Part shown: positions 12,650 through 22,485 of the stretch, one piece after another
How positions within the stretch are numbered: position 1 is the stretch's first letter
How the letters are laid out: each line of letters opens with the position of its first letter
Translations under genes and position numbers: made by a program
Notes under the pieces: generated by a model
Databases searched by the model: none
Told to the model about the DNA's origin: nothing
The model's input: the letters and a program-made list of their open reading frames with translations, nothing else
Origin: a virus
IMG/VR virus record: IMGVR_UViG_3300046535_001314
Coordinates: 1-22,889 of that record
Reading direction: 5' to 3' (one strand)
DNA length: 22,889 nt

Positions 12650-13287
12650 ACCGTCAACATCCGGTAAGGCGCCAGGAACTCGCGCACATTGCTCGGCATG
12701 CCCGGCGAGGTGGTGTCGGAATAATAGACGTGCGTGATGACGTCGGGGATCGACTCGGTGCGCAGCGTCGGGTCGCGGCCGACCGCGAACCATCGCGCCG
12801 CCAGGTATTCGAGCGCCGCGCTCTGCACGTCGGCCGGGATCGGGTCGAAGCCGGCGGTGTAGTCGACCACCAAGAGCGGGCTTGCCCAGACGCTCGGGTC
12901 CAGCGAGGCGGCGTCGAGCCGGTAAAGGCTGCCGGTTTCCGGGTAGACTTCGAGGAGGGTCGGGTCGAGCGCGGCGCCGTCATCGACGACCGCCACCAGC
13001 GGCACGCCGCCGGGGTCGAGCACGATCGGGTATTGCCGCGTCACCAGCGGCTCGCCCCACCGACCACAGGCGCCGCGGACCTGGTCGCGGTAGGACTGCA
13101 CCACGAACACCCGGTCGCAGTAGTTGTTGATCGCCTGCGACACCGAGTCGATCTGCTGCTGCAGCGCGGCATCCTGCGAGGTGTCGGCGGGGTCGATGCC
13201 GAGCGCCGCCTTCGCCTGGTCGAGCGTCACCAGCGCCAGGCTCGTCGCCGGCGTCGTGACCCGGCTGATCCGGTAGTCGGCGCTCAC
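12646..13287 (-). CDS. Head-tail connector (gp6-like) protein
   Basis: This 213-residue protein starts at GTG 13287, which overlaps the collagen-like gene stop as GTGA, with GGGTGG just upstream. The N-terminal half has the gp6-like connector pattern: LALVTLDQAKAALGIDPAD, then a helix (LQQQIDSVSQAINNYCDRVF) that should build the ring under the portal. The second half (VYPETGSLYRLDAASLDPSV, then LLVVDYTAGFD, then VQSAALEYLAARWF) is the fold common in phage connector proteins of the longer type. The frame continues upstream to 13485 only as Arg-rich shadow. It follows the portal and a collagen-like gene, so it belongs to the neck. Confidence 0.8.
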   Translation of the reverse strand: MSADYRISRVTTPATSLALVTLDQAKAALGIDPADTSQDAALQQQIDSVSQAINNYCDRVFVVQSYRDQVRGACGRWGEPLVTRQYPIVLDPGGVPLVAVVDDGAALDPTLLEVYPETGSLYRLDAASLDPSVWASPLLVVDYTAGFDPIPADVQSAALEYLAARWFAVGRDPTLRTESIPDVITHVYYSDTTSPGMPSNVREFLAPYRMLTV

Positions 13288-14198
13288 CGCGCCACCCGCG
13301 TCAGCACGGGATAAAAATCGCAGGACAGCACCGTGCCGTCGCTGAGCCGCAGCGTCAGGAGGCCATCGGTGTCGACTTCGAGCGCCGCGGGCGACGCCGC
13401 TGCCGCACCGGGCGGACCGCGCTCGCCGCGTTGGCCCGGTTCCCCAGGCTTGCCCCGATTCCCCGACGCGGCAATAAGCTGCCACCCGTCACCGGGGCAG
13501 GCACCCGGCCGGTCGGTCCGAGCGACAAAGCTCGAACCGCCGAGCGCCACGACGTCCATCTTCGAATAGTCCGCATCTTTGCTCCAAGTGCCGCGGACGC
13601 TAAACGACCCGCCATCGGCGCCGTCGCGGCCGGCGGCCGCCAACCGGCACCAATCCTCGCCCGGCGGTTCGCGGCCGGTGTCGCGCGCGGCCTGGAAGGT
13701 TTCCCCGGCGTGAACGACGACATCGCCGGCGTAGTGGACGCCCTCGGTCCACACCCGAACCACCGGCAGCAAGCCCGGTGCACCCTCGGGGCCCGGTGGG
13801 CCGGTGATGCTCTCGCCGGGCTCACCGCGCGGCCCAGGCGGGCCCTCGGCGCCGGCAATGCCCGGGGCTCCCTCAGGGCCCGGCGGGCCTTCAATGCTCT
13901 CCCCTGGCGCCCCAGGTTCGCCGTTGCGCAATTCCGCCAGCCGCGTCGCGACTGCCTCGCCCAGCGCCCGCTCGGCCCGGTCGGCGCGCAGCTCGCTTTC
14001 CGCCCGCGCTGCCCGCAATGCCGCGATCTCCTCGCGCACCTCGGAGAGCGCCGCCCCGACCTGCAGGCGCAATTCCCGTTCGAGGGTGCCGACGACAAAG
14101 CCGAGTTCAGCCGCCAGCGGGTCACGCGGCAAAGCGACGCTGTTCGTCATACGCTGCGCGGAACGAAGCGAGTTTGCTTGCGGTGTCGTCGCCGCCAT
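13284..14198 (-). CDS. Collagen-like neck/head fibre protein with carbohydrate-binding-like modules
   Basis: This 304-residue protein starts at the ATG at 14198, preceded by AGGGGAG; the ATG at 14213 lacks such a site. The domains in order are: a helical, heptad-like coiled coil (about 28-91, rich in Arg, Glu, Ala and Leu); a collagen-like Gly-X-Y segment with a few interruptions (92-143); two carbohydrate-binding-like units (146-187 and 199-243), each with W....Y..GDVV or W....Y..MDVV, then an F.A segment and a final W; a second short collagen segment (246-267); and a beta-rich tail. It overlaps the portal gene by 77 bases and precedes the connector. A trimeric fibre attached to the head or neck that touches surface sugars is the natural reading. 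The carbohydrate-binding assignment is by motif only. Confidence 0.75.
   Translation of the reverse strand: MAATTPQANSLRSAQRMTNSVALPRDPLAAELGFVVGTLERELRLQVGAALSEVREEIAALRAARAESELRADRAERALGEAVATRLAELRNGEPGAPGESIEGPPGPEGAPGIAGAEGPPGPRGEPGESITGPPGPEGAPGLLPVVRVWTEGVHYAGDVVVHAGETFQAARDTGREPPGEDWCRLAAAGRDGADGGSFSVRGTWSKDADYSKMDVVALGGSSFVARTDRPGACPGDGWQLIAASGNRGKPGEPGQRGERGPPGAAAASPAALEVDTDGLLTLRLSDGTVLSCDFYPVLTRVAR
13773..13904 (-). repeat. Duplicated 15-residue collagen unit
   Basis: The collagen segment contains GESIEGPPGPEGAPG at residues 99-113 and GESITGPPGPEGAPG at 128-142, which differ at one residue. The spacing is 29 residues, with AGAEGPPGPRG-type sequence between. Collagen repeats of this kind can expand or contract by recombination and could tune fibre length. 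Confidence 0.75.
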
Positions 14199-15516
14199 CG
14201 GCGCTCCCCTCATCGGGATTGACTGGGTCGGCCGGTGGCGCGGCCGGCGGCGGCAGCGCGGCTTGCGGCGAGGGCGGTTGCAGATCGGCGCCGTAGGACA
14301 GCGGGACGACCTGCTGCTGCACCCGCGGTTGCTTGCCGTAGCCGCCCGGCACCGCCGGCAGGTCTTCCTCGGCCCGCGCCTCGTCGGGGCTGTAGATGCC
14401 CGAAATCACGCCGCGCGACAGCGCCTCGATGCGCTCGCGATAGGCCGAGCGTAAGAGCGCCTTGGTGTCGAGCTCGAGGTACTCGTCGGGCACGCCCTTG
14501 AGGTTGAACAATTGACCGAAGGCTTCCTCGATATGATTCAGCGTGAACCCGAGCCCCGAGGCGATCCACGACTGCATCAGGAGCTCGGTCGAGGCGTAGG
14601 TGGTGCCGCCGACGCCCAGGATCGCCAGCGGGATGCGCATCGCCAGCGCGATATTCTGGTCCGACATCTTCAGCATTTCGGCCAGTTGCGCATCGACCGC
14701 TGACGTGGCGATCGGCTGCGCCTTCAGCCCGGCGGTGAGGATCGGCGTGCCGCCGACATTCTCGTTGTGCGTCTGCTCGTTCCACCAGGCGCGCAGTTCC
14801 TGCGCCTGCTCGCGCTTCAGTACCTGGTCGGTGGTGAGCAGGAAGCTCGGCCGGGCCTGGTTGATGTAGAAACTGACCTGCTGCCCCAGCGCGGCGTTGT
14901 TCATTGCCAGGTCGAGCGCCGCCGCCAGGATGGGTGAAGCGCCTTTCAGCGGGTGCCGCGGGGTGTGAAGGCGGACGTGCAAGACGTCGCGCGCCGGCAC
15001 CGGATAGGTGATGTCGAGCCGCTGCTCGACTACCTGGTTGCCGTGCAAGCTGTAGAATATCGAACCGTCCTCGGCGATCTGCGGCACGCCCTCGCGCATC
15101 AGGTGCAATTCGATGATCTCGGCGCGGTTGTTGCGCACGGCCAGCGCGAAGGTCTCGCCGCGCTCGTAGAGTCGGCGGGTCAGGTTTAGCAGGAAGTCGG
15201 AAATGCTTTGGTAGTCGTTCGGCCGCCGCATGATGCGGCTGAGCGCCGAATTGGTGACGCGCTCGCGGCCGCCGTTGTCGAGGGCGCGCCAGTGGTCGCC
15301 GGGGCACATCGGCACGGTTTGGCTGTAGGCGCTGACGCAGGCCTCCAGCATCGCGCTCTGCGAGCCATAGGGCTGCAGGTTGTGGCCGCTCTGCCAGTAG
15401 TTCCAATACCGCCCAACGCTGGCGCTGAGCCAGCCGTCGGACAGCATATAGGGGCCCGGACGATACTGCCCCTCGGCCGCGCGGCCCCAGGGCAGCATCC
15501 GGGTCAGCCAGTTCAC
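14122..15516 (-). CDS. HK97-family portal protein
   Basis: This 464-residue protein is the dodecameric portal through which DNA enters and leaves the head. I start it at the GTG at 15516: AAAGG lies eight bases upstream and the GTG overlaps the stop of the SGNH gene as GTGA. The longer reading from a TTG at 15543 lacks a ribosome binding site. HK97-portal phrases include RIMRRPNDYQSISDFLLNLT, LYERGETFALAVRN, DVLHVRLHTP, LTTDQVLKREQAQELRAWWN, SDQNIALAMRIPLAILGVGG and STELLMQSWIASGLG. The C-terminus is Pro/Gln/Ala-rich and probably flexible. It lies downstream of the capsid gene, not upstream as in HK97. Its first codons are partly duplicated about 1.9 kb upstream in transcription order (17427-17414). 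Confidence 0.9.
   Translation of the reverse strand: MNWLTRMLPWGRAAEGQYRPGPYMLSDGWLSASVGRYWNYWQSGHNLQPYGSQSAMLEACVSAYSQTVPMCPGDHWRALDNGGRERVTNSALSRIMRRPNDYQSISDFLLNLTRRLYERGETFALAVRNNRAEIIELHLMREGVPQIAEDGSIFYSLHGNQVVEQRLDITYPVPARDVLHVRLHTPRHPLKGASPILAAALDLAMNNAALGQQVSFYINQARPSFLLTTDQVLKREQAQELRAWWNEQTHNENVGGTPILTAGLKAQPIATSAVDAQLAEMLKMSDQNIALAMRIPLAILGVGGTTYASTELLMQSWIASGLGFTLNHIEEAFGQLFNLKGVPDEYLELDTKALLRSAYRERIEALSRGVISGIYSPDEARAEEDLPAVPGGYGKQPRVQQQVVPLSYGADLQPPSPQAALPPPAAPPADPVNPDEGSADGGDDTASKLASFRAAYDEQRRFAA
15501..15514 (-). repeat. Repeat copy at the start of the portal gene
   Basis: This 14-base sequence, GAACTGGCTGACCC read on the minus strand, covers portal codons 2-6. It matches the copy at 17427-17414 in 13 of 14 bases. 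The match continues imperfectly downstream (CGGATG with TGGGGC versus CGCATG with TGGGGC) after a 21-base difference. Confidence 0.7.
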
Positions 15517-16922
15517 GGAACTACCTTTCTGACTTCCCAGCAACAGGTCTGCATCGTGCTGGCGATCGCCCCGGCCGCCTTTGAGCCCAGCCTTAAATCT
15601 ATATAAATCTGGGTCACCGGGCCGGCAGGTATCGTGTATTCATCCGACAGCATCGGCACCCAATTCTTACCGCCCATCGGGTAGGTAATCCCGCCAGTCG
15701 TCGGGAACCCAGCTGCCGGGATGCCTTCAGGAGGTGTATCGAACGCCATATGATAGGAAATCACCGCGTTCGTCGTCACCGCGATAAACGGGTTCAATGC
15801 TGCAATATTCGTATTGGTTGCCCCCAAATTCACCCAGAACAACCCTCGTATCACGTCCCCTGTCACAAAATTACCCGGCGTCGACAGGACCACCTGCACA
15901 TCCAAATTCTGCGGCGACGTCATCGTTCCGCCCAGCACCGCCTGCAATGCCCGCACCCCGTTGGTCAGCGTCTGAACGCTCAACGCACAGGTCCCGGCCG
16001 CCGTCGTAAACGGGGTCGACGCCACCGAAAAACCGTTCGGGGTTTGACCGGTGCAGGTTCCGATCGCGCCCGCCGTCCCGGTCATCGCCGGGTTGAGGAC
16101 GTGATTGCCGCGGGGATTGTTGGTGGCGTCGTAGGCATCGCTCGCGGTCAGCTGCGGCGCCAGCCACGGTGGCGCCAGGGCGTTGACGGTCGCAGCAATC
16201 GCCGCCGCCATCGCGGAAGCGCCCAAGCTGGAGGGATGCACCCCGTCCGCCAGATAGCCGGCCAAAACCGCCCAGGTCGCGCTGGTCGGATCGGTCATCA
16301 CCGGGTCCAAATCCACCAGGTAATACCCGTCGCTACCCGAGCCGCGGGCAAACTCCCGCCGCCAGCTGTTGACGCACAACGCCTGCGCCGTCAGCGCCGC
16401 GTTCCACAGCAACCCCCCGCTACGCGGGAAGATCGTGGTGTCAACCACCGTCGTCCCCGCCGCCAGCAGGGTGTTCACAATCGCCCGCAAATTTGCCGTT
16501 ATCGCGCTGCAACCGGCGTTCCCGTTCACATCGTTGGTGCCGCCGTTCATCACCACCATGTCGCAGCCGGCAGCGGATACCGCACCGATTCGCGCCAGCA
16601 TCATCGTCGTCGTATCGCCGCTGACCCCAAAATTATTGGTTTGCGGCGACCGGTACACCCGATAGCCAGTGTATACGTTCAACCAAGTGCCGTAGGACTG
16701 GGAGGTTTGCGCCGAGTAGACGCCGGCGTTGACCGTATCCGACTGCGCGGTAATGCTGTCGCCGTATAAACAAAGTTTTTTTGCCTTCGCGCCGCTATAC
16801 GCGTTCAGCCCGGCACCACCCGTCCCCAGGCTTTTCACCACCGCGCCGGCGGGGGTGGCCAGCAGCTGGGCCAGCAGCAAAAAGCCGCCAAAAACCGCTG
16901 CGGCAATCCCTGGTTTCATCAT
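15513..16922 (-). CDS. Secreted SGNH/GDSL-family hydrolase with C-terminal beta domain
   Basis: This 469-residue protein has all SGNH blocks: Ser56 in CLYGDSITAQ, Gly102 in GVSGDT, Asn130 in NGGTNDV, and Asp226 and His229 in DGVHPSS. Residues 1-27 form a Sec-type signal peptide (MMKPGIAAAVFGGFLLLAQL, then LATPAGAVV). The enzyme core ends near 240. Residues about 245-469 are Gly/Thr-rich and beta-sandwich-like and could be a carbohydrate-binding or autonomous domain; a CC pair occurs near the end. The ATG at 16922 has GGGAG seven bases upstream. The open frame extends to 17309 only as a shadow of the next gene. The family cleaves esters, often acetyl groups on polysaccharides; the substrate here is unknown. 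Finding it exported from within a head gene operon is unusual. Confidence 0.85.
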   Translation of the reverse strand: MMKPGIAAAVFGGFLLLAQLLATPAGAVVKSLGTGGAGLNAYSGAKAKKLCLYGDSITAQSDTVNAGVYSAQTSQSYGTWLNVYTGYRVYRSPQTNNFGVSGDTTTMMLARIGAVSAAGCDMVVMNGGTNDVNGNAGCSAITANLRAIVNTLLAAGTTVVDTTIFPRSGGLLWNAALTAQALCVNSWRREFARGSGSDGYYLVDLDPVMTDPTSATWAVLAGYLADGVHPSSLGASAMAAAIAATVNALAPPWLAPQLTASDAYDATNNPRGNHVLNPAMTGTAGAIGTCTGQTPNGFSVASTPFTTAAGTCALSVQTLTNGVRALQAVLGGTMTSPQNLDVQVVLSTPGNFVTGDVIRGLFWVNLGATNTNIAALNPFIAVTTNAVISYHMAFDTPPEGIPAAGFPTTGGITYPMGGKNWVPMLSDEYTIPAGPVTQIYIDLRLGSKAAGAIASTMQTCCWEVRKVVP

Positions 16923-16962
16923 ATTCCGGCTCCCGGGGTCAGGTACAAAGCTCGCTAAAGCA

Positions 16963-17319
16963 TCACAAGCCGGTCCCCGGCGTGATGTAGAGCGTCGCGG
17001 TGCCGCTCGCGGTGATGCCGGCGAAGTAGGTCTGATTACAGCCGATAACCTCGACGGCCCCCGGCGCGACCGGGAGCGAGGCTGCAACCGTTGCCACGAC
17101 CGCGACGGTGCCGCATTCGACGAACACGGCGACAGTCCCGGCGTTGTAGAGGCGCACGTTCTGCGTGCCGCCCACCGCGGTCTGGATCTGCACCCGGCCG
17201 GTTGTCGCGGTGGCGGCCAGCGTGACGGTGGCAGCGCCATCGGTGCGGAACACTTGTTGCGCGCCGGCCGGCACCGCCAGCAGCAGCAGCAGCGTCGCGG
17301 CAATCGCAAATCGAAGCAT
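16963..17319 (-). CDS. Small secreted beta-rich protein
   Basis: This 118-residue protein has a clear Sec signal peptide: MLRFAIAATLLLLLAVPAGA with a likely cut after residue 20 (AGA|QQ). The mature part is Gly/Val/Thr-rich and predicted beta-sandwich, with two cysteines (C69 and C94) that could form a disulfide in the periplasm. The ATG has AAAGGA eight bases upstream. It lies 40 bases before the SGNH esterase gene, and the two probably form one exported unit. No lipobox is present at the cleavage site. I do not recognise a family. It resembles fragments of surface or pilus-like beta proteins only in composition. A binding partner or regulator of the esterase is a possibility, not shown by the sequence. 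Confidence 0.72.
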   Translation of the reverse strand: MLRFAIAATLLLLLAVPAGAQQVFRTDGAATVTLAATATTGRVQIQTAVGGTQNVRLYNAGTVAVFVECGTVAVVATVAASLPVAPGAVEVIGCNQTYFAGITASGTATLYITPGTGL

Positions 17320-17342
17320 CGGATGGTTCCTTTAGTGTGCCG

Positions 17343-17432
17343 CTAACAGCGCGATTGCCTTGTCGGGCGAGCGCCGCCCCACCCGAACATGCGGGCGAGC
17401 GGCGCCATTACTGGGGTTAGCCAGTTCGCCAT
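17343..17432 (-). pseudogene. Possible relic of a portal gene 5' end (29-codon ORF)
   Basis: Immediately after the stop of the proline-rich gene an ATG at 17432 opens a 29-codon frame whose protein begins MANWLTPVMAPLARMFGWGG and then stops at TAG. Compared with the portal start (NWLTRMLPWGRAAEG) the N-terminal NWLT and the later WG.A region correspond, with seven extra residues between. At DNA level 14 bases (17427-17414) match the portal copy in all but one base. I see no ribosome binding site of note. It may be a remnant left when the secreted-protein genes were inserted, or a very small real gene. The rest of the gap between 17320 and 17343 holds only the upstream ribosome binding site of the secreted protein. 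Confidence 0.4.
17414..17427 (-). repeat. Repeat copy of the portal 5' sequence in the relic ORF
   Basis: This copy, GAACTGGCTAACCC read on the minus strand, pairs with positions 15514-15501. The two copies have the same orientation and lie on either side of the segment carrying the two signal-peptide genes. Confidence 0.65.
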
Positions 17433-17717
17433 TTAGCGGGTGGCGTATCCCGGCCCGCGTTCGCCCGCCATCGCACGCTTCTTGGGCTCCGCTTTGACGC
17501 GCTGCCCGGCCGGCGCCGAGGCGTCGTATTCGCCGAGCTTGATGGCGTCGGCCTCCTCCTGCGTCGGCGTCGGAGTTTCCGGCGGTGTCGAGATCCGCTC
17601 GGCAATTTCTTTGTCGGTCCGCTCGCGCTGCTCGGTGTCAGTTGCCGGGTCAGCAGGTGCGGGCTGCGGCTGCGGCGCGGGCCGCGGTTCCGGCGGTGTG
17701 TGACTGGTCGTTGCCAT
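17433..17717 (-). CDS. Proline-rich acidic hypothetical protein
   Basis: This protein of 94 residues starts at ATG 17717, which sits nine bases from an AGGAG. An ATG two codons upstream (17723) is closer to that site and also possible. The N-terminal third is a proline/alanine run (PPEPRPAPQPQPAPADPA). The middle is acidic and likely helical (TEQRERTDKEIAERI and QEEADAIKLGEY), and the tail is basic (VKAEPKKRAMAGERG). There is no signal peptide. It lies between the Ig-like gene and the portal relic in the capsid-portal interval. It is likely a disordered structural or linker protein, but I do not recognise the family. Confidence 0.6.
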   Translation of the reverse strand: MATTSHTPPEPRPAPQPQPAPADPATDTEQRERTDKEIAERISTPPETPTPTQEEADAIKLGEYDASAPAGQRVKAEPKKRAMAGERGPGYATR

Positions 17718-17737
17718 TGTCATACTCTCCTCAAGCT

Positions 17738-18169: not shown

Positions 18170-18883
18170 CTAAAGCAGCAACCCGAGCTCTCGGGCATAA
18201 TCAATCGGGTCTTGCGCGTTTTTCTTCTGGTTGCACGGTTCGCAAAGGTACTGAAGATTAGCCCGGCCATTCGACCCACCCCGCGATAGTGGGATGATGT
18301 GGTCAACTTGCTTCCGAACCTTTCGTAGATTTGCGCGGCAATAAGCGCAGCGGTGTTTCTGCACTCGTAAAATCTCGTCGAGGTCCGCCTTCGTGTGCTG
18401 GTCTGGCGACCCCATTTCGCGAGCGCGGCGCCGGGCACGGGCGAGGCGGAACGCCTCTCGCGATCTCTCGCGGTTTTCCTGGTGCCATTTGCGTGATCGC
18501 TCGATGAGCTTCTGCCGGTTCGCTTCGTAGTATTTCCGCATGCTGGCACGGCGTGCTTCTTTGTGTTTTTGATAGTCGCGCTTTGCCCATATCGCCGCTT
18601 TCCTCTTATCTGGCGGCTTGTATGGTTTGGCTTTTTCTCTTTGTCGAGACGCCGCCACCTTCTCGGGGTTGTTTTCTTTCCATCGGCGCTTGCTTTCACG
18701 GTCGCGCGCAACATCTCGCTTTGTGCGATACCAAAAGCGGCCACGCTCGTTATTGCAGACCCAGCACGTCCAATTCTTGACATTTCGGCGCGCGATATGC
18801 CCGCGCAGGCAGGGTTTCCCGGTGAAATAGGATGTGAGCCCTTGCGCTATGGCCTCGGCGCGCGAAATGATCTCGTCAGCCAT
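18170..18883 (-). CDS. HNH endonuclease (free-standing, homing-type)
   Basis: This 237-residue protein is made from an ATG with a strong GGGAGG eight bases upstream. A putative zinc motif lies at the N-terminus (CLRGH at 25-29 with CWVC at 40-43). A long, very basic helical linker (50-160, rich in Arg and Lys) suits DNA binding. The HNH core is at 179-220: CAYC at 179-182, VDHIIPLSRGG with Asp194/His195, and NLQYLCEPCNQKK with the second CxxC at 214-217. The last two are the catalytic and metal elements. Its DNA is richer in A+T than the neighbouring genes, and it sits alone between capsid and accessory genes, as expected of a mobile free-standing endonuclease. A packaging-assisting nuclease is the alternative. 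Confidence 0.85.
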   Translation of the reverse strand: MADEIISRAEAIAQGLTSYFTGKPCLRGHIARRNVKNWTCWVCNNERGRFWYRTKRDVARDRESKRRWKENNPEKVAASRQREKAKPYKPPDKRKAAIWAKRDYQKHKEARRASMRKYYEANRQKLIERSRKWHQENRERSREAFRLARARRRAREMGSPDQHTKADLDEILRVQKHRCAYCRANLRKVRKQVDHIIPLSRGGSNGRANLQYLCEPCNQKKNAQDPIDYARELGLLL

Positions 18884-18958: not shown

Positions 18959-20896
18959 TTATCCCCACGAAATACCCGAACCGATAAACTGGACCATTCC
19001 CGGCCGCCGCATCGCCCAATTGATATTCGCGATCATGCGAATCGCGATCTGCGCGGTCTGGAACATGCTTTGCGTCGGCGTCGCCAGCACGCCACTGCCC
19101 TGCGCGCCGCTCGCGATATTCAGCGGCGTGGTGTCCTCCATGTGGATCGTTGCCACCTCGGACACTTCGAATTCCGGCGCCCCGCTGACACTGACGAAAT
19201 CGGCGGCGTCGATCATGTAGACCGCACCGGCTGTGATGCTGGTGCTGACGATCACCGAAAACATATCGGTGAATTGCGTTGACCAGCCGAATGGCGCACC
19301 CGGCGGCCCCGGAGCGAACAGCAGCTGATTGCGCTGCGCCGGGTTCATCAACATCACCAGCTTGCGGCCGGCGTTGACGGCATAAAATGGCGCCGTGAGC
19401 TTGCCCAAATCGCCGAGGAATGCGGCGTATCCGCCGCCCGCGGTCGCGGTCAGCGTTGAAACACCATTGGTCAACCCCGCCGGCCGCGTCGTCGATACCG
19501 CCACGTTGTCCAACAACAAAGCGTCGACGTTGATCTGCGTATCGGCGACGATGCTGTCGCGGATCAGCGTCTCGATGTCGGGGTTGCTGTACATCGCGAT
19601 TTCCCGGCTAAACACCGAGATGCCGCCGACCTTGTGCGGATAGAGCGTGATCGCGGTGGTGCCGAGGCGACGCACCGGGATCGGCGCCGACTCCGCGACG
19701 AACGCGCCGCCGATCGAGGGCGTGGTGGTGCGCGACGGGATTTTTATCGCCCCGGCATTCGGGCCGAAGGTCAAAGCGATGCCCATCCCCGACAGTTGCG
19801 GAAAGACCATGTTCGGCATCAGGGTGTTGACGAATTCCCCCTGCGCAAGCTGCACCAGTTCCGCCGCCCAGCCGGCCGTGGTCGTCGTGGCGCCGGCGAT
19901 CGCCGCGCGGGTGACGACCGCAGTCGGCTCATGGTCCGGATAGCGTTCCGCCAGCACCTGGTCGATCGACACCCCGCGCACATATGCAGAGAATTTGGCG
20001 GCAATGGCGCGCAAGTAGAGATCGCTCGGCTTGATCTCCTTGGTCGGCATGCCGAGCGGTCGGCGGCTCAGCGCCGGGCCCCCGTTATGGCCCATGCCAG
20101 GCGGCAAGATTTCTTGCGGCGGCTGTTGCTGCACGGTGCGCAGGCCGAGGCGGCGCTCGCTTTCCTGCAAGCTCGCCAGCCGGGTTTCCTGCTCGTCGAT
20201 CTCGGCGAACAGCCCCTTGGCGATCTCGACGTCGTGCTCGGGGTCGTGAGTGTGCTCGGCCAATTGGTCACGCGCCGCGTTGAGCCGCGCCTGCCGGTCT
20301 TCGATCTGTCGCGAAATTGAAAGGTCCATTGGGGTTGCCCTCGATTTGGGCTGCGTCACGGCTTGCCCGCCGGTTGTCGCCATGCGCCTGCGCCCCAAAT
20401 CGGCATGCCCGCCGAAGGCCAGTTGCAAGGTGTCGTCGCTGATGTTGAGAGACTTCGCGATCTGCAGCGCCGCCGGGTTGGCCGGCACGCTGACGATCGA
20501 GGTTTCGAGGAGCTCCTGCCGGGTGTAGCGGGTGCCGGCAAGGGGTCGCTTCGGGTCGATCGGCTCGGATTCGACGCCGAGAAAGCCAACTGATGTGGCG
20601 CGCAGGATGTCCTGCTCGATGAGGCTGAGGATCTCGTCGACTCGCTGGCTGGTGCCCTTCGCCGCCGGCACGAGGTCCGCCACCAGGCGCTCGCCCTCGA
20701 CCCGGATATTGGCCCACTTGCCAATGGGTGCATTCGGGCTGTGGTTGAACAGCGCGATCGGGTTGCGCTGGAATTGATCCAACAGCCAGCCGTCGGGCTC
20801 GATGATGTCGCCGTAGCGGTCGACGGTGGCGTCGCTGAGGACATAGGTCAGCGACCCGTCCACCTTGCCGGCGGCGGTTTTGCGTAGCAGGGCCAT
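18959..20896 (-). CDS. Fused HK97-like prohead protease and major capsid protein
   Basis: This single 645-residue ORF starts at the ATG at 20896, preceded by GGGGAA; longer readings are Arg-rich shadow. Residues 1-165 form an S78-type prohead protease: DATVDRYGDIIEPDGW, then LFNHSP with His52, PIGKW, LRATSVGFLG with Ser102, and ETSIVSVPANP. Residues about 190-260 are charged and helical and should be the scaffold (delta) domain (RLASLQESERRLG). Residues 290-645 are the HK97-fold capsid: SDLYLRAIAAKFSAYVRG, IKIPSRTTTPSIGGAFVAES, VGGISVFSREI, MNPAQRNQLLFAP and IRMIANINWAMRRPGMVQFI. In HK97 these are separate genes. An internal ATG at 20329 (residue 190) has GAGGG eight bases upstream and might yield separate capsid. 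Confidence 0.9.
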   Translation of the reverse strand: MALLRKTAAGKVDGSLTYVLSDATVDRYGDIIEPDGWLLDQFQRNPIALFNHSPNAPIGKWANIRVEGERLVADLVPAAKGTSQRVDEILSLIEQDILRATSVGFLGVESEPIDPKRPLAGTRYTRQELLETSIVSVPANPAALQIAKSLNISDDTLQLAFGGHADLGRRRMATTGGQAVTQPKSRATPMDLSISRQIEDRQARLNAARDQLAEHTHDPEHDVEIAKGLFAEIDEQETRLASLQESERRLGLRTVQQQPPQEILPPGMGHNGGPALSRRPLGMPTKEIKPSDLYLRAIAAKFSAYVRGVSIDQVLAERYPDHEPTAVVTRAAIAGATTTTAGWAAELVQLAQGEFVNTLMPNMVFPQLSGMGIALTFGPNAGAIKIPSRTTTPSIGGAFVAESAPIPVRRLGTTAITLYPHKVGGISVFSREIAMYSNPDIETLIRDSIVADTQINVDALLLDNVAVSTTRPAGLTNGVSTLTATAGGGYAAFLGDLGKLTAPFYAVNAGRKLVMLMNPAQRNQLLFAPGPPGAPFGWSTQFTDMFSVIVSTSITAGAVYMIDAADFVSVSGAPEFEVSEVATIHMEDTTPLNIASGAQGSGVLATPTQSMFQTAQIAIRMIANINWAMRRPGMVQFIGSGISWG

Positions 20897-20919
20897 AGGT
20901 ATTTCCCCGTATAGGGCCG

Positions 20920-22485
20920 TCAGACCACCATCGACATGATGTCGAGCGGTTCTTCGGCCTCGGCGGCGGCCGCACCGCGGGCCATCGTCAATGCCACCAT
21001 CCCGTCGATGCGGCCGGCGGCACGCGCCTTGTCGAGCTTGCGGTTGCCCGCCGGATCGGTCTTGGTGACGGCATTCGCCGCGCACATCGTCAGCACCGGA
21101 TGACTGCCGTGGGCCAGCTTGGCGTTGAGCAGATCGCTTTCGAGCTCACGCAAGGCCGGCGACATCGACTGCACGCCCTGCCCGAATTCGACAAAGCGGC
21201 TATCGAGGTCGGCGTCGCTGAAGCCCGCCTTTACCAGCCACGGGCGCAAGTGCTTCCAGCCCCAACGGTCGAAGGCCAACTTTTGCACGTCGTAGCGCTG
21301 GAAGACGTCGCGCAGGTATTCGGCGACAAACTCGTATTCGATGCTCTTGCCCGGCGCGGCTTCGAGATATCCCTCTTTGTGCCACTGGTCGTAAGGCACC
21401 CGGTCGGCGCGGGCCTTCAGTGCCAACCCGTCGCCCGGCAGCCAGAATGTCGGGTGGCATTGCCATATCCCGTCCACTTCGCCGAGCAGCACCAATGCCG
21501 TCAGATCCGACACCGACGACAGGTCGAGCCCGCCATAGACCGGCGTTCCGTCGATCGGCAGCGCCTCCGCACCGCACGCCGCCCATACACTGGCGCTGAC
21601 AAACGGGTTGTTCGCATCGACCCGCTGGTTCAGCACCAGGTTGCGGAATTCCGCTTCGCGGCTCGGCATGCGCCGCGCGTCCTCGGCCATCGACAGGACT
21701 TCTGTCGAATTCAGGAAATCGCCAAAGGCCGGGTTTGCGGCGCGGATTGCCTCTTCGCCAAACGGGTCGAGGTCTTCGTCGGCGGTGTAGAGCTTGACTA
21801 CAACTCGCGGGTCGTGCCCCGCCAGCGCATCATCGATCAGCACCGACAAGAGATCCGCGTCGGTCGGCGCTTGGGTTGAAATGATGATGCTGAGCGGATC
21901 GTCCTGCGCCCCGGTCGCTGTTTCCAGCGCTTCATACAAGGTGCTGCGCGGGCCTCTTACTTGGCCGAGCTCGTCGTGAACGATGAACCGCGGGTTAAGC
22001 CCGAAGGCGGTCGTCGCTTCCGCAGACAGCGCTTTGTAGAAGGTGCCGAGCTCGGGATAGAGAATTTCCTTTGCGGTTTGGCGAATCTGAATGAACGGAT
22101 GTAGTTCCGGTGATAGCCGCACGCATTGCGCCGCCAGGTCGAACAACAATCCCGCCTGATCCCTCGATTGCGCCGCACTGTACATCCGCGAGTTGGCCTG
22201 CGCTTCCGGCCCGCATAGGTGCAATAGCAACAGGAACGCAGAGAGCGCCGTCTTGCCGTTCTTCCTGCCGAAGCTGAGGATCGCTCGGCGCGTACCGTGC
22301 GGGTTGTCGTAGATCGCTCGTATCGCCTCGCGCTGCCATTCGCGCAGCACTACACGCTTGCCAACCATGTCCGCGCGCCCGCTCGGTACGCGGCAGCACT
22401 CCTCGATCCACGCAATGGCGCGCTCACCCCGCGTGCGTTCGCGTGTGCGGGCTACTGACGACTGCAAGCGGCTTCTTGTTGCCAT
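20920..22485 (-). CDS. terL: Terminase large subunit
   Basis: This 521-residue packaging motor has both the ATPase and nuclease domains. The Walker A motif is GRKNGKT (73-79) and Walker B is FIVHDE (167-172), followed by a STQAP coupling motif (203-207). The RNase H-like nuclease carries Asp321 in GGLDLSS, Asp406 in AFDRWGW and Asp494 in GRIDGMVALTMA. It packages DNA from a procapsid via the portal. The ATG at 22485 lies inside the small-subunit gene (62-base overlap) without a good ribosome binding site, so it is likely coupled. All key residues are present, so the enzyme should be active. It ends 23 bases before the capsid fusion gene. Confidence 0.93.
   Translation of the reverse strand: MATRSRLQSSVARTRERTRGERAIAWIEECCRVPSGRADMVGKRVVLREWQREAIRAIYDNPHGTRRAILSFGRKNGKTALSAFLLLLHLCGPEAQANSRMYSAAQSRDQAGLLFDLAAQCVRLSPELHPFIQIRQTAKEILYPELGTFYKALSAEATTAFGLNPRFIVHDELGQVRGPRSTLYEALETATGAQDDPLSIIISTQAPTDADLLSVLIDDALAGHDPRVVVKLYTADEDLDPFGEEAIRAANPAFGDFLNSTEVLSMAEDARRMPSREAEFRNLVLNQRVDANNPFVSASVWAACGAEALPIDGTPVYGGLDLSSVSDLTALVLLGEVDGIWQCHPTFWLPGDGLALKARADRVPYDQWHKEGYLEAAPGKSIEYEFVAEYLRDVFQRYDVQKLAFDRWGWKHLRPWLVKAGFSDADLDSRFVEFGQGVQSMSPALRELESDLLNAKLAHGSHPVLTMCAANAVTKTDPAGNRKLDKARAAGRIDGMVALTMARGAAAAEAEEPLDIMSMVV

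Follow-up and report, generated by a model that had tools for sequence, protein, structure and literature searches.

A phage moron is defined as DNA that separates two genes adjoining each other in related phages and has a promoter and a terminator of its own (PMC3029335). Phage esterases that act on surface polysaccharide are known as virion tailspikes, for example in Moo19, B2 and G7C (PMC11654681), and Pantoea stewartii WceF, a bacterial beta-helix hydrolase encoded in an exopolysaccharide operon, is a precedent for the export of a phage-tailspike-like exopolysaccharide enzyme through a signal peptide, in its case of the twin-arginine translocation (Tat) type (PMC7949094). Here we describe an insert of two genes with signal-peptide-like starts, one for an SGNH/GDSL esterase-type protein and one for a 118-aa protein (sec118), between the portal gene and the proline-rich gene preceding it (pro96) in the IMG/VR virus record IMGVR_UViG_3300046535_001314 (positions 1-22,889; "the window" is this whole 22.9-kb stretch). 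We put at roughly 80% the probability that the pro96-portal boundary is a turnover site for secreted-gene cassettes, and that the entry of sec118 and the SGNH gene, a relic of the portal start and a stub of a second sec118 gene record a rearranged history; the order of events, the export of the proteins, their substrate and the benefit to the phage we infer.

Like phage morons, the insert adds genes without an obvious head-assembly role, here between pro96 and portal, two genes that are contiguous in relatives, and PHROGs assigns its SGNH family to the moron category. Most relatives lack it, consistent with dispensability. It differs from described morons in that its genes overlap their neighbours, its GC (guanine plus cytosine) content departs mildly from its surroundings (SGNH gene 62.1% and sec118 69.2%, against 67.1% for portal and 65.7% for the window) and it carries scars of earlier states; moreover, a sigma-70-type promoter scan gave its only promoter-like match inside the SGNH gene, and terminator-like sites did not exceed those of shuffled sequence. 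Because the regulatory part of the definition was not found, we call the insert moron-like: it is a moron by position and not by regulation, so that of the term moron, used in a preliminary description made from the letters alone, the positional sense stands and the regulatory sense falls. The window proteins resemble the esterase tailspikes in their predicted action on surface polysaccharide and WceF in their predicted export, but they are predicted to be free rather than virion-bound, and the enzyme, encoded by a phage, belongs to the SGNH family and has a Sec-like start.

The portal start and its relic

The features on which the argument turns are the following; signal-peptide calls throughout come from a heuristic, not from SignalP.

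17433..17723, minus strand: pro96, proline-rich 96-aa gene (open reading frame (ORF); homologues at the equivalent position in 42 non-redundant loci)
17343..17432, minus strand: 29-codon ORF MANWLTPVMAPLARMFGWGGARPTRQSRC then stop, read as a relic of the ancestral portal start (junction hidden Markov model (HMM) and blastn of relative L019)
17414..17427, minus strand: 14-mer copy with one change, GAACTGGCTAACCC (string search of the record)
16963..17319, minus strand: sec118, 118-aa protein with signal-peptide-like N-terminus, head gene of its cassette (ORF; 47 IMG/VR loci)
15513..16922 (alternative start 16919), minus strand: SGNH/GDSL esterase-type protein with signal-peptide-like N-terminus (PF13472; phrog_6102)
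15501..15514, minus strand: exact 14-mer GAACTGGCTGACCC at the present portal start (string search of the record)
14122..15516, minus strand: portal gene, HK97-type (TIGR01537 E 7.1e-45; PF04860 E 4.7e-64)

The comparison drew on 80 IMG/VR portal relatives and 16 relatives in bacterial genomes, the latter mostly Hyphomicrobiales (e.g., Mesorhizobium, Bradyrhizobium, Devosia, Aureimonas and Methylobacterium). A recognizable pro96 end (..Y.TR and stop) occurs in 42 non-redundant loci, which are related sequences and not independent events. The portal start lies -1 to +2 nt from the pro96 stop in 33 of the 42, usually as ATG-GCN-AAC-TGG (MANWL...), so that pro96, which in the window ends ...PGYATR with stop codon TAA, is the gene preceding portal in uninserted relatives. 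The window carries 1,916 nt where these 33 are contiguous. The remaining nine loci hold 46 to 2,804 nt at the boundary, one of them (L003) being this same phage. Four loci (L019, L052, L066 and L078) have TAA followed at once by ATG, exactly as at the relic; the junctions read ...GYMTR-stop MANWLTRALGWG in L019, ...GYTTR-stop MPNWLTRMFSWGG in L052 and ...GYQTR-stop MANWLTNLLSWG in L066. Relatives without the two secreted genes thus have portal directly after pro96 and an N-terminus like that of the relic, as the preliminary description had predicted.

That description had noted that the first bases of the portal gene recur about 1.9 kb upstream, with one change, in a 29-codon ORF. This is the case, and the two sites are the only ones in the record at up to one mismatch (15501-15514 and 17414-17427); the 14-mer is correctly located but begins on the last G of the GTG and not, as had been stated, after it. 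The ATG of the 29-codon ORF stands immediately 3' of the pro96 TAA, and its first 19 nt are the best preserved. A profile HMM of the empty pro96-portal junction, built from 33 relatives and searched against the window, matched the real portal start (15514-15463, E 6.8e-9) and the relic (17461-17405, E 1.8e-8); the third-best match had E 0.15 (17410-17375) and nothing else fell below E 0.1. An HMM of the portal portion alone matched the relic with E 0.0028, the next match having E 1.0. Both copies contain TGGGGC, into which the match had been said to continue; the motif is indeed shared, but not in simple register, the relic being longer by about 20 bases. When the window is joined at the two 14-mers the product is MANWLTRMLPWGRAAEGQYRPGPYM, identical to relative L007 at 24 of 25 residues with the last alone differing, and blastn of L019 gives two alignments with 14 nt of L019 in common, one that starts upstream of pro96 and runs unbroken across it into the relic, and one along portal. 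Because the empty-junction profile and the rejoined start match relatives, we regard the 29-codon ORF as a relic of an older portal start and not as a conserved gene, which bears out the earlier suggestion that it was the original portal start directly after the proline-rich gene.

Chance likeness of the two starts has in its favor that the simple-register match covers 14 bp only, yet the junction HMM value of the relic and its identical gene-boundary position in relatives reduce this explanation to a negligible one, and we reject it; the match is far better than that of unrelated sequences. An assembly chimera is likewise rejected, as the separate contig L003 shows the same arrangement (6 mismatches in 6,393 nt, none from pro96 to the portal start). 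A third explanation would make the ORF a small functional gene in its own right, or a leader through which translation of the secreted genes is coupled: it is intact, it begins at the pro96 stop, and sec118 starts 23 nt after it with an AAGGA motif. Against this, a search with the pattern NWLTPVM found the ORF outside the window in L003 only, and the other cassettes at the site lack such an ORF, their first ATG overlapping the pro96 stop directly. A conserved small gene, which the preliminary description had named as fatal to its proposal, is rejected on these grounds, and a working gene or leader of any kind seems very improbable.

The third-best HMM match defines one further feature:

17375..17410, minus strand: second, weaker portal-start-like stretch within the relic, TAATGGCG..CGCTCGCCCGCATGTTCGGGTGGGGCG (junction HMM E 0.15, whole window)

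In local alignment to portal 5' ends this stretch scores 107, with a maximum of 102 in 200 shuffles, and 2.5% of window 71-mers equal it. The second half of the relic (17410-17375) is possibly a second partial portal start, perhaps from a further layer of exchange, although the match is weak by itself.

A second scar and the sec118 family

A remnant of another gene lies in the stretch from the end of sec118 to the beginning of the SGNH gene:

16919..16950, minus strand: stub, 3' end of a second sec118-family gene (LYLTPGAGI and stop; sec118 3'-end HMM and local alignment)

Its ten codons (TTG TAC CTG ACC CCG GGA GCC GGA ATA TGA) encode a sec118-family C-terminus, comparable to LYLTPGSGI-stop in L087 and LYITPGTGL-stop in the window sec118 itself. 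An HMM of sec118 3' ends from which the window copy had been left out matches the stub with E 1.7e-4 (next match E 0.26), and in local alignment the stub reaches a score of 105, whereas 2000 shuffles gave at most 78. The stub overlaps the SGNH start as TGATG, the same type of junction as between sec118 and its partner in L022 and L036. Most likely the SGNH gene once stood behind a different sec118 copy. On sequence comparison both the relic and the stub are scars, and the stub in front of the SGNH gene means that at least two exchanges are recorded.

The arrangement could alternatively have arisen if the complete cassette had inserted once, in the manner of a transposon, within the 5' end of portal and duplicated about 14 bp of target, the present portal start being the original. 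The pair of 14-mers with one mismatch flanks the insert, joining them restores a normal portal start, and one insertion with a 14-bp duplication is the simpler account. However, the stub demands an extra event, the relic has divergent portal-like sequence beyond the 14 bp, and neighboring occupied sites show no such duplication; the two insert genes are not transposases, and no search was made for terminal inverted repeats. We consider this account improbable. Of the single incoming event originally envisaged, the insertion therefore stands and its singleness does not.

Searches of PHROGs, Pfam and NCBIfam with the sec118 protein gave no match, nor did annotated phages; one weak match was found among 397 bacterial genomes, all from the order to which the Bradyrhizobium relative belongs. 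Its cassettes occur at the portal junction, between the terminase (terL) and capsid genes (L104-L106) and in tail modules (L086, L087 and L136), and the protein tree mixes these positions without separation. By these comparisons, the sec118 cassette is mobile within the structural block. A lamG-type (arabinofuranosidase-like) gene lies downstream at all other sec118 loci save L121 and L136, where the sequence stops within about 0.45 kb. The window departs from this usual composition in that the SGNH gene occupies the place of the arabinofuranosidase-like gene. The DNA coding for the signal peptide of the window sec118 is nearest to tail-type loci; its upstream flank match equals the shuffle 95% value and the tree is unseparated, and we do not claim a tail-module origin.

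Occupied sites in other relatives

Eight non-redundant relatives other than L003 hold other DNA at the pro96-portal boundary, one of them as a deletion remnant only; the cargo-bearing loci are L022, L027, L030, L035, L036, L048 and L050. Cargo starts were scored signal-peptide-like at L022, L035, L036, L048 and L050 and not in the protein of L027. L022 and L036 carry sec118, an arabinofuranosidase-like protein (in L022 alpha-L-arabinofuranosidase B, PF09206 E 8.3e-14) and a probable beta-helix protein, and L050 carries sec118 and the arabinofuranosidase-like protein; a sec118-cassette partner has a weak match to a tail spike. L035 and L048 carry a predicted secreted-type protein of 137-138 aa, to whose family a reading frame of 111 residues in L030 also belongs. 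At loci where the position of the first cargo gene could be established, the relic is absent and the gene begins with an ATG overlapping the stop codon of pro96. What is left of the L035-type gene in L032 (3433-3480) and L034 (529-576) is 5 nt from its start and 46 nt from its end, identical to L035, which implies that a cargo gene was deleted in place.

Export and function of the insert proteins

The SGNH assignment is solid (PF13472 E 1.5e-21, 78.1 bits against a curated cut-off of 32.9; phrog_6102 "lipase", moron category, E 2.8e-52 over residues 48-467), and all catalytic blocks can be read from the sequence: G54-D55-S56, G102, GTND at 128-131 and D226-x-x-H229. The statement that two signal-peptide genes lie between the 14-mers is thus secure for the esterase fold and, for the signal peptides, holds at the level of the heuristic, which sec118 and SGNH both pass. 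Of the sec118 family, 25 of 31 non-redundant members pass as well, compared with 34 of the 874 antisense ORFs that served as controls and one of 14 further genes of the window. AlphaFold models have predicted local distance difference test (pLDDT) values of 43.7 for SGNH and 59.6 for sec118, the latter a low-confidence all-beta model. Foldseek returned assorted beta-sandwich binding domains for sec118 at template modeling (TM) scores up to about 0.6, and these were not used to assign a function.

It is an even call that the SGNH protein would be an exported esterase whose targets, late in infection, are ester-bearing polysaccharides of the host surface or the extracellular space, with the small, probably all-beta sec118 exported alongside it. 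The main rival on function is that the cargo proteins are virion parts, for decoration or receptor degradation, with hydrophobic N-termini that serve another purpose. Their genes stand amid those for head and tail, sec118 cassettes also occur in tail modules, esterase tailspikes are known (PMC11654681), and SGNH relatives in Pseudomonas phages are annotated beside particle proteins. Lyrsu01 is such a case: its lipase shares with the window protein the SGNH domain and a C-terminal region with the motif D-[AI]-Y-[DN]-A-T-[NT]-N-P, and keeps GDS, GTND and DGLH. It differs in lacking a signal-peptide-like start, which the window protein has, and in its place beside particle-protein genes; the virion-type relative is thus without the feature that unrelated cargo proteins at the site have in common, and Sec export would take proteins out of the cytoplasm, where virions assemble. 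The virion role is possible, but we think it unlikely.

Proposed history

In the history that we favor, the pro96-portal boundary would be a turnover site for secreted-protein cassettes in soil phages whose closest genome-borne relatives are mostly Hyphomicrobiales. The recipient would have had pro96 and then a portal gene beginning MANWLTPVMAPLARMFGWGG, and the donor the order pro96, sec118, SGNH and portal, with no relic. DNA bearing sec118 and the SGNH gene would have entered at the portal start by illegitimate recombination at gene ends, leaving the original portal 5' end as the 29-codon relic and a complete, translationally overlapped portal start after the SGNH gene, the intact start coming from the incoming segment or being retained to its right. 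With the SGNH gene previously behind another sec118, two or more illegitimate exchanges at the ends of genes would be required. The 5' end of the present portal gene may be donor or recipient DNA, arrival with the incoming segment being the likelier: its nearest relatives (L004-L016) are not those of pro96 (L019 and L022), although mosaicism runs through the whole of these phages. Cargo-bearing relatives such as L050/L051, whose portal start GTGAACTGG is the same as that of the window and overlaps the cargo stop, are plausible donor types. Both proteins would be made late, together with the head genes, and exported through their signal peptides, and SGNH would strip ester groups from polysaccharide around the infected cell, favoring progeny spread or blocking re-adsorption.

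Several observations weigh against this history or the export that it includes. Searches for SGNH, sec118 and the relic pattern found the sec118-SGNH pair or the relic in no relative but L003, and so yielded no donor. Past its first 19-25 nt the relic resembles portal weakly. The Lyrsu01 relative sits among particle-protein genes without a signal peptide, and the SGNH fold family is often virion-associated.

Genomic context

The minus strand reads terminase large subunit (22485-20920), protease-capsid fusion (to 18959), HNH endonuclease (18883-18170), a small gene (18160-17738), pro96 (17723-17433), the 29-codon ORF (17432-17343), sec118 (17319-16963), SGNH (16922-15513) and portal (15516-14122), followed by connector and tail genes. 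The portal protein belongs to the HK97 type (TIGR01537 153.6 bits, cut-off 112.05), and its GTG start (15516-15514) overlaps the SGNH stop as GTGA. The ORF at 18959-21085 (minus strand) apparently fuses head protease and major capsid protein (phrog_617, Peptidase_S78, weak Phage_capsid). The HNH gene between capsid and pro96 (18170-18883, minus strand; PF14279 E 2.1e-13) may be a free-standing homing endonuclease. A collagen-like protein (13284-14213, minus strand) has a weak CBM_5_12 match, and its reading frame overlaps the portal gene 3' end.

Implications

Gene gain in phages is usually inferred by comparison, and junctions are often too clean for reconstruction. Here an empty site, occupied sites, a part-deleted cassette (L032/L034) and two scars in one genome make part of the history readable. 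The sec118 family, unmatched in PHROGs, Pfam and NCBIfam, heads a predicted secreted carbohydrate-active cassette in dozens of phage contigs. Tentatively, sec118 may be the constant exported partner of swappable surface-polysaccharide-active proteins, in a general and undescribed secreted module of soil phages that moves among structural-block sites. If the predicted export is true, free enzymes, besides tailspikes, would modify polysaccharide outside the cell.

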